From contig WQZD01000020.1 of assembly GCA_009780915.1 (NCBI GenBank), forward strand, positions 1 through 45,000: 45,000 nucleotides of DNA, written 5' to 3'. The position numbers and the translations under genes were made by a program. This stretch comes from Propionibacteriaceae bacterium (GTDB lineage Bacteria > Actinomycetota > Actinomycetes > Propionibacteriales > Propionibacteriaceae). Shown piece after piece: positions 15,367-45,000 of the stretch (the stretch's first letter is position 1; each line of letters starts with the position of its first letter). Below the pieces are notes generated by a model. It was not told where the DNA came from and searched no databases. It was given only the letters and a program-made list of their open reading frames with translations.

Positions 15367-16416
15367 GTGCGTAAACGTCCGTTCATAGCTGCTCGCATCG
15401 AGAAGCAACTCAATCGCCGCATCGCGACCACCCTGCGCCGCTTCGGATGGCGTGACACGGTCGTGGCGTACACGGGGTACGGCTCGCAAACCCGGCTGCG
15501 CGTCCTGGGACGCGTCATCCTCTCCCCCAAGAACTCCCCAGCCATCACGGCCAGCCGCGAGGAGGTCTGGGCCCTTCGCCGTGGCTGGCGCAACTTCATC
15601 TGCGTCCCGGCGGTCAACCGCGCGGTCCAGGTCAGCGTGGGCGGGCACGTCACCGACGCCCTCACCGACCGCAACGGGTACGTCGACATCGCCGTCGCGC
15701 GACACGGGCTCACGCCGGGGTGGCACCACGTCCACATCTCCACCGGCGACAGCGCGCCCACCGTGGCCCCGGTGCTGATCATCGGCGACGACGTGCGGTT
15801 CGGCATCGTCTCGGACATCGACGACACGATCATCACCAGCTACCTCCCGCGTCTGATGATCGCCGCGTACAACTCCTTCGTCTTGCGGGAGTCCGCCCGC
15901 GTGCCCGTCGCCGGGATGGCCGCGATGTACGGCGCCCTCCTGCGCCAGCACCCGGGCGCCCCGCTGATCTACGTGTCCACGGGGTCCTGGGACACCCAGC
16001 CCTTCCTCGAACGCTTCATCGGGCGCCACGGCTATCCGTCCGGGCCCATGCTCCTCTCCGACTGGGGACCGACCAACACCGGCTGGTTCCGGTCGGGTCC
16101 CGCCCACAAACGCGCCTGCCTGGACACCCTGGCCCGCGACTTCCCCCACATCCGCTGGCTGCTGGTCGGCGACGACGGTCAGCATGATCCGGGGCTGTAC
16201 GCCGAGTTCGCCATGCGCCACCCCGAGCAGGTGGCCGGAATCGCGATCCGCGAGCTTCCCACCGTGGAGCAGGTCCTCGCCCACGGCAGCCCCTCGACGA
16301 TGTCGCTCTTCCCCACCTTGACCCCGGCGCAGGTGCGTCAGGTACGCGCCCCCGACGGGCACACCCTGCTCCCCTTGGTCCACTCCCTGCTCGCCGATCC
16401 CGGCCCGGGCCTCTGA
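15367..16416 (+). CDS. App1-type (DUF2183) HAD-like phosphatase
   Basis: A 349-residue protein. The N-terminal half (about 1-130) is a beta-rich domain. The C-terminal half is the App1 catalytic domain with FGIVSDIDDTII (the DxDxT nucleophile motif), PLIYVSTGSWD (motif II Thr/Ser), HKR and LLVGDDGQHDPGLY (acidic metal-binding motif). Yeast App1 is a phosphatidate phosphatase; the bacterial substrate is untested. The start is GTG at 15367 with GGAGAGG upstream. It is divergent from the phosphodiesterase gene, separated by 45 bases, so the two promoters must overlap. Confidence 0.87.
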   Translation: MRKRPFIAARIEKQLNRRIATTLRRFGWRDTVVAYTGYGSQTRLRVLGRVILSPKNSPAITASREEVWALRRGWRNFICVPAVNRAVQVSVGGHVTDALTDRNGYVDIAVARHGLTPGWHHVHISTGDSAPTVAPVLIIGDDVRFGIVSDIDDTIITSYLPRLMIAAYNSFVLRESARVPVAGMAAMYGALLRQHPGAPLIYVSTGSWDTQPFLERFIGRHGYPSGPMLLSDWGPTNTGWFRSGPAHKRACLDTLARDFPHIRWLLVGDDGQHDPGLYAEFAMRHPEQVAGIAIRELPTVEQVLAHGSPSTMSLFPTLTPAQVRQVRAPDGHTLLPLVHSLLADPGPGL

Positions 16417-16533: not shown

Positions 16534-18978
<2,445 letters not shown>

Positions 18979-38252: not shown

Positions 38253-38375
38253 ATGAAGCTGACGAGGGATGACATCCGCCATCCGGTGGCGTCCCTCGTG
38301 GGTTCCCACAGACCGCCGGTGGTGTCCACACGTCATATCGCCTCGACCCGTGAGGCGCGGATCGATCCATGCTGA
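38253..38375 (+). CDS. Candidate 40-residue leader ORF before ecfT
   Basis: MKLTRDDIRHPVASLVGS opens a 40-codon frame rich in His and Arg. Its ATG lies six bases after a TAGACT -10 element (leaderless), and its stop TGA overlaps the start region of ecfT, so it may couple transport-gene translation. I recognise no homologue. It may be non-coding 5' leader. Confidence 0.3.
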   Translation: MKLTRDDIRHPVASLVGSHRPPVVSTRHIASTREARIDPC

Positions 38376-39049
38376 GCCTGTACGTCCCCGGAGACTCGCT
38401 CATCCACCGGACCCCCGCCTGGCTCAAGCTCCTGGTGTTGTGTGTGTGCGGAACCGCTGTCATGATCATCCCCTCTCCCGTGGCGTTGGCTGTCGGATTG
38501 GCGCTGGTCGTCGTCTCGTACGCCGTCGCCGGCATCGGCGTCCGCGTCGTGTGGCGCGCCTCGCGTGCCATCCTGGTCTTCGTCGTCGTCATCACCGCGT
38601 TCCAGTGGTTGTTCAGCTCGTGGGCTCTCGCCCTGGTCGTCGGCGAGAGGATCCTCTTCCTCGTCGCCGCAGCCAACCTCCTCACCGTGACCACCACCAT
38701 GTCGGACCTGATCGCGACGGTGGAGTCTCTCCTGACCCCTTTCGCCCGGTGGGGCGTACGCCCCGACAGGGCCGGCATCGCCATCGCCCTGGCTTTGCGG
38801 TTCATCCCCACTCTGGTCGAGCAAGGGGCTCTCATCCGTGAGGCGCAAGCCGCCCGAGGGGTGAAGGCGCCGTTCACCTATCTGGCCCCGCTGATCATCC
38901 GGGCCCTCCGCATGGCGGACGGAGTCGGCGAGGCCCTGGAGGCACGCGGCCTGGGCGCGGCCCCCGTACGGCCCCTGGGCGCCACCGGGCCCGACCCGGG
39001 GGCCACTGACCCGCCTGCCATCGCTCACCCCCCGACTGACAAGGAGTGA
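38369..39049 (+). CDS. bioN: ECF transporter transmembrane protein EcfT/BioN
   Basis: The scaffold of the energy-coupling-factor biotin importer. 226 residues with about five or six hydrophobic helices (17-40, 42-60, 68-88, 90-105, 145-170) and the two conserved Ala-Arg-Gly coupling motifs (EAQAARGVKA and LEARGLG) that engage the ATPase. The start MLSLYVPGDSLIHRTPAWLK is typical for EcfT. It ends overlapping the region of bioY (AAGGAGTGA). The C-terminal tail is Pro-rich. Confidence 0.92.
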   Translation: MLSLYVPGDSLIHRTPAWLKLLVLCVCGTAVMIIPSPVALAVGLALVVVSYAVAGIGVRVVWRASRAILVFVVVITAFQWLFSSWALALVVGERILFLVAAANLLTVTTTMSDLIATVESLLTPFARWGVRPDRAGIAIALALRFIPTLVEQGALIREAQAARGVKAPFTYLAPLIIRALRMADGVGEALEARGLGAAPVRPLGATGPDPGATDPPAIAHPPTDKE

Positions 39050-39051
39050 CT

Positions 39052-39609
39052 GTGCGACCGAAAGACATCGCCCTCATCGCCCTGTTCGCGGCCCTGACCT
39101 GCACCCTCGGTCTCACCCCGCTCATCCCCCTGCCCCTGATCGGCGCCACGTTCGCCCTGCAAACCCTCGGGATGCTGCTCGCGGGAGGGATCCTGGGCGC
39201 CCGACGCGCGACGGCGTCCATGGCGCTGGTGATCGCCCTCGTCGCCATCGGTCTGCCCGTCCTGACCGGAGGACAGGGCGGACTGGGCAAACTGGTCGGC
39301 CCCACCGCGGGCTTCATCTGGTCCTGGCCCATCGGCGCCTGCCTGACGGGACTGATGATCCAGCACTGGTGGGAGAAGCTCACCCCGGCGCGAGCCTTCG
39401 TCGCCGCGATCATCGGTTCGGTGAGCTTGTACGTCCTGGGCCACTCGTGGCTGGCCTTCAGCCTCCACGTCCCGTGGTCCGTCGCATGGTGGTCGTGGGT
39501 GGTGTACCTGCCCGGCGACATCGTCAAGTCCCTTCTCGCCGCGGTGGTCATCGTCACCGTGAAGAAGGCCTATCCCCTGATCACCCCTCGTACCCGGGCG
39601 GCCTCATGA
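39052..39609 (+). CDS. bioY: Biotin-binding S component BioY
   Basis: 185 residues. GTG at 39052 has AAGGAG with a five-base gap, which is better than the GTG at 39046. Six helices; characteristic BioY pieces are IPLPLIGATFALQTLGMLLAGG, GARRA, GPTAGFIWSWPIGA and YLPGDIVKSLLAA. It binds biotin with high affinity in the membrane and hands it to EcfT. Its stop overlaps the ATPase start (ATGA). Confidence 0.95.
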   Translation: MRPKDIALIALFAALTCTLGLTPLIPLPLIGATFALQTLGMLLAGGILGARRATASMALVIALVAIGLPVLTGGQGGLGKLVGPTAGFIWSWPIGACLTGLMIQHWWEKLTPARAFVAAIIGSVSLYVLGHSWLAFSLHVPWSVAWWSWVVYLPGDIVKSLLAAVVIVTVKKAYPLITPRTRAAS

Positions 39610-40277
39610 TCCAGATCGACTCAGTCAGCCACGTCTACGGGCGGCGCGAGGTGCTCAGCGAGGTCTCGTTGGACCTGGCCGAGCGCCGCATCGGCATCGT
39701 CGGGGGCAACGGGTCGGGCAAGTCGACGCTGCTGCGCCTGTGCAACGGACTGATCCTGCCCACGCGCGGACGGGTCCGGGTCCTCGGCCACGACACTGCT
39801 CGGGAGCTGTCGGTCGTACGTTCCCTCGTGGGTTTCGTCTTCCAGGACCCCGACCTGCAGATCATCATGCCGACTGTCGCCGAAGACCTCGCCTTCTCCT
39901 TGCGCCCGGCTCGCTTGTCCCGCCAGGAGGTCGCCGCCCGCGTCGATCTCTGGCTGGACGCCTACGGACTGGCGTCTCACAAGGACCACCCCGCACATCT
40001 GCTCTCCGGCGGCCAGAAACAACTCCTGGCCATCGCCGCCATCCTCATCACGCGACCGCAGATCCTGGTCTTCGACGAGCCCACCACACTGCTCGACCTG
40101 CGCAACACACGCCGGGTCATGGACGTGGTGTCAGGCCTGGACCAGCAGGTGATCGTCGCGACCCATGATCTCGACTTCCTCGCGGACTTCGACCGGGTGA
40201 TCGTCCTAGACGAGGGACGAGTCGTGGCGGACGACTCCCCCGCCCCCGCCCTGGCCGCCTACCGGCGTCTCGTGTGA
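39606..40277 (+). CDS. bioM: ECF transporter ATPase EcfA/BioM
   Basis: A 223-residue ATPase starting MIQIDSVSHVYG. Walker A VGGNGSGKSTLL, Q-loop FVFQDPD, signature LLSGGQKQLLAIAAIL, Walker B ILVFDEPTTLLD and H-loop ATHD are all present. A single ATPase gene (homodimer) is what dedicated BioMNY systems use. The gene order here is EcfT, BioY, EcfA. No biotin-synthesis genes are in the window, so uptake is the only biotin function seen. Confidence 0.94.
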   Translation: MIQIDSVSHVYGRREVLSEVSLDLAERRIGIVGGNGSGKSTLLRLCNGLILPTRGRVRVLGHDTARELSVVRSLVGFVFQDPDLQIIMPTVAEDLAFSLRPARLSRQEVAARVDLWLDAYGLASHKDHPAHLLSGGQKQLLAIAAILITRPQILVFDEPTTLLDLRNTRRVMDVVSGLDQQVIVATHDLDFLADFDRVIVLDEGRVVADDSPAPALAAYRRLV

Positions 40278-40293
40278 GCGACTGGAAGATCGC

Positions 40294-40299
40294 TAGACT
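40294..40299 (+). promoter_or_regulatory. -10 element (TAGACT) before the ParC-CTD-like gene
   Basis: TAGACT stands 49 bases before the ATG at 40348, inside the 70-base gap after bioM. It suggests a separate promoter; the -35 is weak. Confidence 0.35.
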
Positions 40300-40347
40300 C
40301 GTGTAGCAGAGCCCCGGACTAGGTGGGACGGGGTGGAAGGAGCGGTG

Positions 40348-41226
40348 ATGAACCAGGTGATCCTGTCCTCGACCGGGAGATTGGCGTGTGTCGACGTGCC
40401 GGAACCGGTGGGAAGGGCGCGCATGGGCCAGACCACCGCCCGCGCCGACCATGACGTGGTCGCGTCGAGCGCCGTGAGCATGGACGGGGCTGTCGGCGCC
40501 GTCACCAGTTCCGGACACGCGTTCCGCGTCGAGGTCGCGGATCTGCCGACTCTGCCTCCCGGCGGCCCTTGGTCGCTGTGGGACGGCCCCAAGGCCGATG
40601 ATCTGAACCCGGCATCCGGTCACGTGGTGGGCCTGTTCTGCCTCGACCGCGACGCCGCTCCCCTGGCTCTGGCCACATCGACTGGCGCCGTCAAACGTGT
40701 CGTCCCCGAGTACAAGGGGTGGACCACCTGGGAGGTCATGTCGGTCAAGGAGGACGACACGGTCGTGGGAGTCCATCACGCCTGGGACGGCGACGACCTG
40801 GTGTTCGTCACCCGGGACGCCCAGTTGCTGCGGGTGTCCGCCCGGGAGGTACGGCCCCAGGGCCGTCCAGCCGGCGGCATGGCCGGAATCCGACTGGCCG
40901 AGGATTCGGAGGTGATCTTCTTCACCGCCGTGGCCAAGGATGACGCCGAGCAGACCATCGTCGCCACCATGGCCGTGGGCCCGGAGTCGGTCTCCACGGT
41001 GAAGACCACGCCACTAACCGAGTACCCGTCCAAGGGACGTTCCACCTCGGGTGTGCGTACCCAGCGCTTCCTCAAAGGACAGGACAGACTGGCCCTGGCC
41101 TGGGTCGGCCTGCCTCCTGTGCGCGCCTGCGACTCGGCCGGATCGCCACGCAATCTTCCCTCCACGCACGACCGCCGTGACGGGACCGGCGCCAAAGTCT
41201 ATGGCCCCTTCGCCGCCTTCGGATGA
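40348..41226 (+). CDS. Stand-alone ParC/GyrA-type C-terminal beta-pinwheel protein
   Basis: 292 residues from an ATG with GGAAGGAG five bases upstream. The whole chain matches only the DNA-wrapping C-terminal domain of type IIA topoisomerase A subunits. Blade motifs parallel ParC at 16534: VRPQGRPAGGMAGIRL against VRPQGRSGGGMAGISL, TEYPSKGRSTSGVRTQRFL against ELYPSKGRATGGVRSHRFL, then LAWVGLPP and a shared ending RRDGTG. The N-terminal cleavage domain, the catalytic Tyr and the coiled coil are absent, so it cannot cut DNA. It could bend or wrap DNA, or bind ParC partners. It is followed by DUF1810 18 bases later. An alternative GTG at 40333 is less likely. Confidence 0.88.
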   Translation: MNQVILSSTGRLACVDVPEPVGRARMGQTTARADHDVVASSAVSMDGAVGAVTSSGHAFRVEVADLPTLPPGGPWSLWDGPKADDLNPASGHVVGLFCLDRDAAPLALATSTGAVKRVVPEYKGWTTWEVMSVKEDDTVVGVHHAWDGDDLVFVTRDAQLLRVSAREVRPQGRPAGGMAGIRLAEDSEVIFFTAVAKDDAEQTIVATMAVGPESVSTVKTTPLTEYPSKGRSTSGVRTQRFLKGQDRLALAWVGLPPVRACDSAGSPRNLPSTHDRRDGTGAKVYGPFAAFG

Positions 41227-41244: not shown

Positions 41245-41661
41245 ATGACGGACCCTCGTCTGACCCGCTTCCTCACCGCCCAGGAGGGCGTCTACCCGCG
41301 GGCTTTGGCGGAGGTGCGCGCCGGACGCAAACGCACTCACTGGATGTGGTTCATCTTCCCGCAGATCGCTGGCCTGGGCGTCAGCCCCATGTCTCAGACG
41401 TACGCCATCCACGATCTGAGCGAGGCCCAGGCCTACGCGGCTGATCCGACTCTGGGCTCACGGTTGGTGGAGATCACGACGGCTCTGCTGGATCTGACGC
41501 CTGACCCGGAGGTCGTCTTCGGGTATCCCGACGACCTCAAACTGCGCAGTTGCATGACACTGTTCTCCGCCGTGCCGGGCGCCGATCCCGTCTTTCAGCG
41601 GGTCCTGGACGAGTGGTTCTCCTCCTGCGCCGACGAGGCGACCCTCCGACTCCTCGGCTGA
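41245..41661 (+). CDS. DUF1810 family protein
   Basis: A 138-residue helical protein with the family's core wording: RTHWMWFIFPQIAGLG, SPMSQTYAI, EAQAYAADPTLGSRL, and GYPDDLKLRSCMTLFS. No function is established. It starts 18 bases after the topoisomerase-domain gene and converges on the HAD phosphatase gene, with 22 bases between stops. Confidence 0.93.
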   Translation: MTDPRLTRFLTAQEGVYPRALAEVRAGRKRTHWMWFIFPQIAGLGVSPMSQTYAIHDLSEAQAYAADPTLGSRLVEITTALLDLTPDPEVVFGYPDDLKLRSCMTLFSAVPGADPVFQRVLDEWFSSCADEATLRLLG

Positions 41662-41683: not shown

Positions 41684-42505
41684 TCACCCCTGTGAGTCGA
41701 CCTGTGTCGGGCATGGGGCCACGAGGCAGGTCAGGTCAGGTCCGATGTACGTGGGTCGCTGGGACGGGGGCGCGACCTCGAGGTCCGCCATCGAATGGGA
41801 CCCCGACAGGACGAACAGCGAGTCCCAACCGGCGAGGGTCGCGCCTTCGACGTCGGTGTCCAGCCTGTCGCCCACGAACAGCAACCTCGTGCCGCCGAGG
41901 CGGCGCACCGTCTCGTCGAACAGGGGTTGTGCGGGCTTCCCACCCATGCGGGGGGCGAGGCCGGGCAGGGCCTCGCCCATAGCCTTCAGGATCCCACCCA
42001 TGCCGATGGCCAGGCCTTCGGGGGCGGGACGGTTCAGGTCGTTGTTGCAGGCGTACCACGTGGCCCCGTCTTGGACGGCGAAGCACCCCTCGTTGAGCTG
42101 CTCCCAAGTCAGTCCGGGATGATAGCCCACGCAGATGGCGCGTGTGTCCGCCGACCGGGTCTCCACAGGGCTCAGCCCCACCGCGGCGATCTCGTCGACG
42201 AGCGCCTGCGTCCCGAGCACGAAGACCTCCGCCCCGGCCGGCAGGCGCTCTGCCATGACCCGGGCTGTGGCCTGCGCCGAGGTGACGACGTCCTCGGGAG
42301 CGCAGGGGATGCCCAGGCGGCTCAGGTGCTCCGACACCGCCTGGGGTCCACGCTGCGCGTTGTTGGTGACGAACCCGACCTTGATGCCGCGTCGACGGAT
42401 CTCTGCGATCGTGGACGCCGCGCCGGGCACGGCCTCGGGGCCTGTGTACACGACCCCGTCCAAGTCGAAGCCGACGAGGTCGTACCCGTCCACCAGATCT
42501 GCCAT
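41684..42505 (-). CDS. HAD IIA family phosphatase (NagD-like, Rv1692-like)
   Basis: A 273-residue HAD-superfamily phosphatase, cytosolic. Motif I FDLDGVVYTG (nucleophile Asp), motif II FVTNNAQRG, a large C2-type cap (about 75-175), motif III Lys in GGKPAQPLFDETVRR, and motif IV LFVGDRLDTDVEGATLAG. Mycobacterial Rv1692 is described as a glycerol-3-phosphate phosphatase in lipid recycling, so that is the best guess. The start is four bases after the stop of the TPR gene, with GAGGACTGAGG as ribosome site, forming an operon as in mycobacteria. Confidence 0.9.
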   Translation of the reverse strand: MADLVDGYDLVGFDLDGVVYTGPEAVPGAASTIAEIRRRGIKVGFVTNNAQRGPQAVSEHLSRLGIPCAPEDVVTSAQATARVMAERLPAGAEVFVLGTQALVDEIAAVGLSPVETRSADTRAICVGYHPGLTWEQLNEGCFAVQDGATWYACNNDLNRPAPEGLAIGMGGILKAMGEALPGLAPRMGGKPAQPLFDETVRRLGGTRLLFVGDRLDTDVEGATLAGWDSLFVLSGSHSMADLEVAPPSQRPTYIGPDLTCLVAPCPTQVDSQG

Positions 42506-42509
42506 GGCC

Positions 42510-45000
42510 TCAGTCCTCGTCGGTCTGGGCCTCGATGTCCTGCGTCGGATGGAGGTCCTCAGTAGTCTCGGCGTCAGTAGTCTCGGCTAGATCAGAGTCG
42601 TCCGCATCAGAGTCGTCCGCATCAGGGTCGACTTCGACGGACTCATCTTCATCCGAGTCCGCCTCGACAGACTCAGCCTCAACGGACTCAGCCTCATCCG
42701 AGTCACCCTCGGCAGACTGATCCTCGGCAGACTCATCCTCGGCAGACTCATCCTCAACGGACTCAGCCGCATCGTCGGACTCATCGATGTCGATGTCCTC
42801 CTCGTCGTCCAGCATCTCGGACTCGTCGTCCAGCATCTCGCGGTCCTCGGACTCGGCGTCCTCTGCCACATCATCCTCACGCTCATCCAGATCGTCATCA
42901 CTGTCGTCCTCAAGCTCGTCCAGGTCATCTTCGAATTCGTCCTGGTCGTCCTCAAGGTCGTCCTCGAACTCGTCCTGGTCGTCCTCGTCGTCCTCAAGGT
43001 CGTCCTCGGATTCGTCCAAGTCGTCCTGGTCGTCGATCTCCTCGTCCATGAACTCGCTCTCATCCACGTCGAGCGTGATGCCGTCGAACTCGTCCAGGCG
43101 GTCCAGGGCGGCCGTCTCCCCCTCAGGGTCGATGCGGGCAGCCATGGCGAAACCTCGGTAGGCGTTGGCCATGTCGCCGGCCTGCGCGAGCAGATCCGAG
43201 TAGGCGTACAGCAGGCGCGCCTGCGCCACGCGAGGATGACGGATGGTCGGGCGCTCGATCTCGCGACGCAGAAGACGCATCGCCTCCTCGCGCTGACCCA
43301 TGTCCACGCGCACCCCGGCCGTGACGATCAGCAGTTCCAGGCGCATCGAGGGATCCTCGATCTCCTTCTCGCCCTCGGCGGACAGTTCCAGCGCCTCGCG
43401 GTACTTGGACTGTGCCCGCAGGCAATCCACCATCACGGGGATGAGATCGGCGGATCCGGTCATACGCCGTAAGGTGCGGTACTGGGACAACGCCTCATCG
43501 TACAGTCCGGCCGCGTACGCGGTCTCGGCGGCCACCTCGCGGGTGATGGGCAGTCGTGCCGCACGGCGGCGCGCCGCCTCGGCGTGCCGGTGCGCCAATT
43601 GCGGATCCTGGTCCATCATCATGCCGGCCATCATCAGGTGTGCGCCGACCACGCGGGCGGTGTCCGCCGACAAGCTGCGCAATTCGGCCTTCATGCCCCG
43701 AGGCATCTTCACGTCGTCGGGCAGAACAGGGGTCTCCGGTTCGTCTGGTCGAGCCTCGAGCCCCGGAGGCGGGGTCGGACGCTCCTCCTCGTCCCAGGAC
43801 CTGGTCGAGAAGCGGTTCCCCCCGTCCCGGTCGTGAGACGACGAGCGGAAGTCCCGGTCACCGGATCCACGACGGTCGCCATCGCGGCGCTCGTAGGACC
43901 CGTACCCACGCCGATCGCCGTCGCGACCCGAGTCCGAGCGGAAACCGCGCGAACCACCATTACGCCCACGATCAGAGCCATACCGGGGACGATCGCCGCC
44001 ACGATCCTGATCAGAGCCATAGCGGGGACGGTCACCATCACGCCCACGGTCGGAACCATAGCGGGGACGGTCACCGCCACGATCCTGATCAGAGCCATAG
44101 CGGGGACGATCACCATCACGCCCACGGTCGGAACCATAGGACGGACGATCCTCGCCCCGACCACGTGGCGATCCGTATCCGCCGCGGTCACGGTCAGAGC
44201 CGAAGTCACGACGGCCACCGTCGCGACCCGCGCCGGACCCACGGCGATCACCGTCACGACCCCAACCGGAGTCGCTGCGGCGGCGATCATCGCCGCCTCG
44301 GCCTCCGCGGAACTCGCGGTCGCCCTGACCACCGTTCCCGAAGGACCGGCGATCCTCGCCGCCACGGTTCCCGAAGGACCGCTGATCGTCACGGCCGCGG
44401 TCCGAGCGATAGTCGCCGCGTCCTGCGCTCCTGGACCCCTCCTGGCCTTCGACGTCGCCAGTGCGCTCCCGATCGTCGAACCGCTTGGTGAAGGGACGAG
44501 AACCACCGCGGCGGTCGGCGTCGCCGCGATCCTCGCGCCATGGGCGGCTGGCGCCATCGCGCCCGCCACGGAAGCCCGAGTCGCGGGAATCACGGGTGTC
44601 TCTGCCGCGGCCAGCGTCATGACCACCGCGGTGGTCCGCGCGGCCGGCGTCACGTCCGTACCCCCCACGGGAGTCAGACGACCAACGGGTCGACGTCGCG
44701 TCGCGGTCCTGGTCTGGTCCGCCGGGGCGACGTTGGAAAGAATCACGGCGGGGCTCGCCATCGCGAGAACCCCGGGACTGGAAGGAGCCGCGACCACCGT
44801 CACGTCGAGAATCGGAGCCGAAACGACCCTCCCCTTGGGATCGGCCAGAGTCTCGGCCACCACGATAACCCTCTCGGTTGCCCTGGTAACCCTCTCGGCC
44901 ACCTGCGTCCGACCTGTAGGACGGTGTGGAATCTGAACGGGGGCGGCGATCCTCGCCGCGAGGAGTCCAGCCCTCACGATCGCGGGGAGCGTCGTCACGT
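42510..45000 (-). CDS. RG-rich / TPR-like / acidic-tail protein (5' end outside window)
   Basis: The frame is open without a stop from the right edge to 42510, about 829 visible residues, although the start is not visible. The first 430 are low-complexity, rich in Arg, Gly, Asp, Ser and Tyr (RGG-like), including four tandem 13-residue units. Around 430-640 is a helical TPR-like region (AETAYAAGLYDEALSQYRTL, VDCLRAQSKYREALEL, AYSDLLAQAGDMANAYRGF), the counterpart of Rv1691. The final 185 residues are nearly all Asp/Glu/Ser. The tail's extreme negative charge opposes the basic N-terminus. Actinobacterial TPR proteins with similar tails exist, but their role is unproven; RNA binding and condensate formation are inferences. 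A short-form start at 43712 (GTG) is possible but would leave the in-frame upstream part unexplained. Confidence 0.82.
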   Translation of the reverse strand, partial: RDDAPRDREGWTPRGEDRRPRSDSTPSYRSDAGGREGYQGNREGYRGGRDSGRSQGEGRFGSDSRRDGGRGSFQSRGSRDGEPRRDSFQRRPGGPDQDRDATSTRWSSDSRGGYGRDAGRADHRGGHDAGRGRDTRDSRDSGFRGGRDGASRPWREDRGDADRRGGSRPFTKRFDDRERTGDVEGQEGSRSAGRGDYRSDRGRDDQRSFGNRGGEDRRSFGNGGQGDREFRGGRGGDDRRRSDSGWGRDGDRRGSGAGRDGGRRDFGSDRDRGGYGSPRGRGEDRPSYGSDRGRDGDRPRYGSDQDRGGDRPRYGSDRGRDGDRPRYGSDQDRGGDRPRYGSDRGRNGGSRGFRSDSGRDGDRRGYGSYERRDGDRRGSGDRDFRSSSHDRDGGNRFSTRSWDEEERPTPPPGLEARPDEPETPVLPDDVKMPRGMKAELRSLSADTARVVGAHLMMAGMMMDQDPQLAHRHAEAARRRAARLPITREVAAETAYAAGLYDEALSQYRTLRRMTGSADLIPVMVDCLRAQSKYREALELSAEGEKEIEDPSMRLELLIVTAGVRVDMGQREEAMRLLRREIERPTIRHPRVAQARLLYAYSDLLAQAGDMANAYRGFAMAARIDPEGETAALDRLDEFDGITLDVDESEFMDEEIDDQDDLDESEDDLEDDEDDQDEFEDDLEDDQDEFEDDLDELEDDSDDDLDEREDDVAEDAESEDREMLDDESEMLDDEEDIDIDESDDAAESVEDESAEDESAEDQSAEGDSDEAESVEAESVEADSDEDESVEVDPDADDSDADDSDLAETTDAETTEDLHPTQDIEAQTDED
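43978..44133 (-). repeat. Tandem 39-bp coding repeats in the RG-rich region
   Basis: Units begin at 43978, 44017, 44056 and 44095, with a partial one from 44134. They encode DRPRYGSD followed alternately by QDRGG or RGRDG, giving two near-identical 78-bp higher units. They are in frame with the large minus-strand protein, so they are coding repeats, not a CRISPR array. Confidence 0.9.

Follow-up and report, generated by a model that had tools for sequence, protein, structure and literature searches.

The window analysed here is a stretch of 45,000 nucleotides from contig C20 (WQZD01000020.1) of a Propionibacteriaceae bacterium, the genome of which amounts to 2.78 Mb in 45 contigs. Towards the end of the window lies a gene for a free ParC-type C-terminal DNA-wrapping domain (CTD), the product of which (P0001) has 292 residues. 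The same stretch carries an intact parC gene. The main features are as follows.

40348..41226, + strand: free ParC-type CTD gene, 292 aa, ATG start (open reading frame, Pfam, BLASTP, predicted fold)
40337..40342, + strand: AAGGAG, ribosome-binding-site-like, five bases before the ATG of the free gene
40294..40299, + strand: TAGACT, -10-like hexamer 54 nt ahead of the free gene's start codon, a putative promoter element by its sequence
16534..18978, + strand: intact parC, 814 aa, paralogue of the free gene, with its CTD at about 18091-18960 (Pfam, NCBIfam, BLASTP)

The free CTD gene and its resemblance to ParC

The identity of this gene as a free ParC-type CTD gene is near certain. A sequence-only reading of this DNA had described a 292-residue open reading frame that aligns only with the beta-pinwheel of ParC and lacks the cleavage domain. 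The frame is present, and BLASTP aligned P0001 with residues 520-809 of the genome's own ParC (121/296 identities, 41%, E 2e-52), the two sequences being collinear down to the last residues, C-terminal tail included; the blade motifs quoted in that reading occur in both proteins. The word "only" did not hold, since GyrA CTDs match too. ParC was clearly the better match to P0001 in whole-genome searches. The NCBIfam models for GyrA and topoisomerase IV scored 59.3 and 58.0 bits, respectively, both far below their cut-offs (58 bits against 654 for the whole-protein topoisomerase IV model NF004044), and among solved structures the closest sequences are those of GyrA CTDs.

Pfam found PF03989 alone in P0001, at 60 bits (cut-off 27) and in two stretches; PF00521, the breakage-reunion domain, was absent, as had been claimed, and the gene upstream encodes an ABC ATPase. 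The genome's own ParC contains both PF00521 (504 bits) and PF03989. A structure model predicted a PF03989-type pinwheel for P0001, in agreement with what the sequence-only reading expected. The protein is acidic overall (pI 5.9, net charge -4), and the CTD of its own ParC is similar (pI 5.5, -5); because of this equal acidity, overall charge does not decide whether a basic DNA-binding face is lacking. The free gene lies 21 kb from parC in the window and about 45 kb from it in a congeneric genome (G001), and elsewhere the two are on separate contigs. Judged by sequence, the free gene and the 3' third of parC are paralogues, the former having become a gene of its own.

Occurrence and selection within the genus

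Thirteen of the 19 genomes examined from the window's genus carry the free gene, namely the window's own (G000) and G001, G003, G004, G007, G008, G009, G010, G012, G013, G015, G016 and G018. The G012 copy is interrupted by two contig ends, leaving 12 full free proteins in the genus, and P0001 is 47-70% identical to the 11 full-length relatives. Orthologues beyond this strain, which the sequence-only reading had made decisive, are thus present in 12 other genomes, and a chance open reading frame is excluded by them.

In the sole close pair, G016 and G018, the ratio of nonsynonymous to synonymous change (dN/dS, NG86) was 0.063 for the free gene and 0.074 for the ParC CTDs. The remaining pairs have dS of about 0.67 or more, and their dN/dS values (0.11 to 0.65, wherever a ratio was defined) are only approximate. 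Nonsynonymous change was greater in the free gene than in the ParC CTD in all 45 pairs for which both were computed, and the free gene therefore evolves faster. The free gene represents a real gene family under purifying selection. A pseudogene or assembly artefact was rejected on account of the orthologues and dN/dS.

Promoter-like elements upstream of the free genes

Start codons were picked by eye, that of G004 being unsure. TAGACT occurs 32-54 nt upstream of the start in six genomes of the eight-member subclade of the window (G000, G001, G003, G010, G013 and G015) and is missing at that spacing from the other two, G016 and G018. A second, leaderless-like arrangement, TANNNT 12-14 nt before the start, is found in G007, G009, G012, G065, G151 and G163, that is, in 6/16 starts examined across this genus and a second one described below, the free genes of which have it 12-13 nt ahead of the start. 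Promoter-like -10 elements of one kind or the other precede nine of the 13 starts in the window's genus. Together with the ATG and the AAGGAG, they bear out the earlier claim of a dedicated gene with its own start signal. G008 has TATGAT at -29 and G016 two other TANNNT, and upstream of the free-gene starts of G004 and G018 no promoter-like element was seen. TAGACT occurs 22 times in 385,918 positions of the same loci; the binomial chances, about 4e-14 and 3e-10, are a guide only, because the motifs were selected with the sequences already in view and orthologues do not count as independent.

A second set of free CTDs and the wider distribution

The family was surveyed in 147 genomes, five of which were looked at more closely. 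Another genus, g15, also yielded a free ParC CTD in three of its 15 sampled members (G065, G151 and G163), in all three cases downstream of parC and on the same strand. The gene ends at a convergent parE, 3 nt away in G065 and with overlapping stop codons in G163; the contig of G151 ends at that place. In G163 about 2.3 kb separate parC from the free CTD gene (L101 2901-5187). The g15 proteins have 334, 337 and 338 residues, and the predicted structure of the G151 protein (336 aa modelled) places a 36-residue helix ahead of the pinwheel, with a predicted local distance difference test score (pLDDT) of 89.7. By eye this N-terminal helix resembles the ParC coiled coil; BLASTP left its first ten residues unaligned and matched the rest to another stretch, giving no support to a descent from that coiled coil.

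Outside the family no second ParC-type CTD was found, either among the 97 such genomes in an order draw of 147 or in a class draw of 158 genomes (104 with a match at E 1e-25); in these draws scoring was confined to the 15 or 16 best candidates of each genome. A phylum draw was weak, 9 of its 158 genomes matching at all. Among the best 80 of 558 relatives, 78 lie in frames reaching at least 400 aa upstream, taken as ParC, and two are free genes, taken as the G010 and G009 copies. Five family genomes, 59-84% complete, gave no match at all, and a first scan of genome contigs found no relative. Short frames in G024, G095, G108, G119 and G136 were rejected as ordinary ParC with the frame broken or cut by contig ends. 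In G024 (L023; 8.2 Mb, one contig) ParC appears as two frames meeting mid-gene, a frameshift or sequencing error.

Residue changes relative to ParC

Positions in this section follow P0001 numbering in an alignment (A2) that includes 31 ParC rows and the 12 full free proteins of the window's genus. Like the ParC CTD, the free protein has the pinwheel fold, as predicted, a collinear sequence, several rim arginines and the C-terminal tail. It differs by the missing breakage-reunion domain, by a displaced basic residue in blade 3, and by the conserved free-specific motifs PEYKGW, KGQ and RNLP. Position 125 is K or R in 31/31 ParC rows and W in 12/12 free proteins of the genus, whereas ParC has L, V or I at position 123 and these free proteins have K there in 11/12 cases (N in one), so that PE-x-L-G-K in ParC is opposed to PEYKGW in the free proteins. 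Positions 123-125 probably belong to blade 3, because the site adjoins the residue aligned with the DNA-contact arginine R667 of S. Typhi. In the g15 proteins position 125 is Q, Q and D and position 123 is R, R and K, an alignment less sure on account of one extra loop residue. A basic residue stands just before the lost blade-3 basic in 14 of the 15 full free proteins of both sets.

Three of the five S. Typhi DNA-contact arginines that were mapped are kept in P0001, and R169, R173, K219, K229, R231 and R237 are invariant throughout the alignment. The ParC basics at 43, 46, 57 and 92 are lost in the free proteins, which in the window's genus have gained K123 (11/12) and K134, R166 and R268 (each 12/12). 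Mean charge is similar (-3.7 for free proteins and -3.3 for ParC). Conserved free-specific residues of other kinds are Y122, W125, Q245, D262 and N269; position 269 is N in both free sets and mostly D or E in ParC. The first-set changes K134, R166, Q245, D262, R268 and K283 do not occur in the second set, except for one K at 283. The changes common to both sets fit either common origin or convergence.

Origin

A tree of 68 rows, drawn with a midpoint root, groups the 12 free proteins of the window's genus into a single clade (100/100) that sits on a long branch. The three g15 proteins form another (100/100) within the g15 ParC proteins (85/81 with the ParC of G163). Neither a single clade of all free proteins (p-AU 0.20) nor a grouping of the first set with its own genus's ParC (p-AU 0.22) was rejected, and both one birth and two fit these tests. 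An origin from a phage or plasmid was considered and not favoured, P0001 having no PHROGs family. Seven phage and six plasmid records match at less than 60% identity; since its match lies 769 bases from a record end, the top phage record (MT837316, 8268 bases) may represent a fragment of a bacterial parC.

Function and comparison with known systems

To our knowledge, the sole free CTD known so far is the one made from within gyrA in Borrelia. No report of a dedicated free ParC-CTD gene was found in the literature searched, where most subscription-journal papers were outside reach. According to a 2023 paper on the Borrelia protein Gac, it is made inside gyrA from a promoter internal to the full gene, wraps DNA, acts as a repressor of ospC and complements HU in some features, and the authors stated that whether a free CTD is unique to Borrelia was not known (PMC10127594). 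Gac of Borrelia burgdorferi and the protein described here are both free pinwheels from a type IIA topoisomerase CTD, of about 30-35 kDa and with their own start signals. The analogy with Gac drawn by the sequence-only reading gains support, at the level of sequence, from the open frame, the start codon and the promoter-like element. The two proteins differ in that Gac is derived from gyrA, whereas here a separate ParC-type gene, nearer in sequence to ParC than to GyrA CTDs in genome searches, exists with its parent intact elsewhere. The shortened GyrA paralogue of Tuwongella immobilis offers a parallel as a type IIA A-subunit paralogue whose CTD is altered, but it is described as a GyrA homologue with fewer CTD repeats and not as a free CTD (PMC8567305). 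A dedicated and conserved ParC-type gene offers a natural test of what a topoisomerase wrapping domain does by itself, and of whether domains of this kind contribute to the repertoire of nucleoid proteins.

In hand are homology, a predicted fold, gene conservation, purifying selection, promoter-like elements and the retention of several DNA-contact arginines; expression, DNA binding, bending and a cellular role are inferred. The free pinwheel would bind duplex DNA along its rim and bend it without cutting, acting as a small nucleoid-associated DNA-bending protein much as Gac does with the GyrA CTD, and the protein may also influence transcription, as with Gac. By analogy, we give this reading a probability of about 50%. 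Several points count against it: P0001 has a net negative charge; of the mapped S. Typhi arginines, R667, which is one of the two pivots, corresponds to T126 and R612 to P71; the first third of the domain lacks several basics present in ParC; six of the 19 genus members manage without the gene; and the position of the second set between parC and parE may hint at a role with topoisomerase IV and not a general one. DNA mimicry by an acidic protein was not favoured, the CTD of its own ParC being equally acidic and rim arginines being kept.

Modulation of topoisomerase IV (or gyrase) is the main rival reading and the less likely of the two: the free pinwheel would compete with the ParC CTD for the passed DNA segment or for a CTD partner, tuning decatenation. 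The g15 gene order points that way, with the free CTD downstream of parC in all three genomes and ending at parE in both contigs that reach it, and so does the contact of the E. coli ParC CTD with the MukB hinge, as given in PMC3950513. However, parC and parE also converge in three other family genomes (G095, G108 and G119), where the space between the two genes holds no CTD match, and the place may therefore only mark the birth of a tandem copy; in the window's genus, moreover, the gene lies at the distances from parC given above or on another contig, among varying neighbours. The pinwheel could instead have departed from DNA to become a protein-binding scaffold, its propeller kept and its surface re-used for another ligand. 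The conserved Y122, W125, Q245, D262 and N269 and the loss of the basics at 43, 46, 57 and 92 would suit such a change, which the six invariant basic residues and the conserved new ones at 123, 134, 166 and 268 render improbable. That the gene is a functionless, decaying fragment of a duplicated parC, or an artefact of assembly, would be in keeping with its absence from six genomes and its faster change in 45/45 pairs, yet it is hardly credible given open frames in 12 other genomes (one of them interrupted at two contig ends), the low dN/dS of the close pair, a conserved signature and known genes flanking both sides in several genomes. It may tentatively be proposed that the wrapping domain of topoisomerase IV was freed within one family, either twice independently or once anciently with many losses, and that the blade-3 change seen in both free sets reflects an altered wrapping path; if so, nucleoid proteins of topoisomerase descent would form a class of their own.

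Genomic neighbourhood

The following genes surround the free gene in the window.

38369..39049, + strand: ecfT-like gene, CbiQ family (neighbour comparison)
39046..39609, + strand: bioY (Pfam and neighbour comparison)
39609..40277, + strand: ecfA-like ABC ATPase gene, ending 70 nt upstream of the free gene; neighbour in 7/13 genomes
41245..41661, + strand: DUF1810 gene, adjoining the free gene in the window and in G013 but in none of the other stretches searched
41684..42505, - strand: HAD-type hydrolase gene, the next conserved gene past the free gene (neighbour comparison)

The sequence-only reading had proposed looking for orthologues beside bioY/DUF1810. The free gene follows ecfA of the bioY cluster in only seven of the 13 carriers (G000, G001, G010, G013, G015, G016 and G018), and DUF1810 is a neighbour in two, G000 and G013. 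The HAD gene lies beyond the free gene in G000, G001, G003, G010, G013 and G015; on that side the contigs of G016 and G018 stop within 1.5 kb. Different neighbours were found in G004, G007, G008, G009 and G012. The free gene is therefore not a fixed part of a biotin transporter operon, and at these frequencies neither ecfA nor DUF1810 looks like a partner; a function shared with biotin uptake or with DUF1810 was not favoured, since the neighbours vary.

The homologous place was located in each of the six genomes without the gene, and the free gene is absent there. ecfA and the HAD gene are adjacent in G011, with about 140 nt between matches; ecfA is followed by a TPR-like gene in G002 and G006, where the HAD gene was unmatched; and the HAD gene adjoins bioY in G005 and G017. 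In G014 a DUF4139/DUF4140 protein (L191 3672-5264, - strand) is encoded between the HAD gene and ecfA, and absence is least sure here because the genome is 88% complete.

Some minor observations concern the same loci. In G018 (L087 3979-7242) about 3.3 kb lie between the bioY and ecfT matches, which elsewhere are neighbours. No parE match was found in the window with the G065 parE as query (E 1e-10); in several genera besides this one the two genes parE and parC are convergent. A gene with an APP1-type phosphatase domain precedes parC in the window (15367-16416, + strand, by Pfam) and in G065 (L099 13337-14428, - strand, by eye). Finally, positions 42510-43712 of the window (- strand) encode a TPR-like protein, named by eye and without a Pfam match, with a long Asp/Glu-rich tail; the TPR-like gene adjoins the HAD gene or ecfA in relatives both with and without the free CTD.
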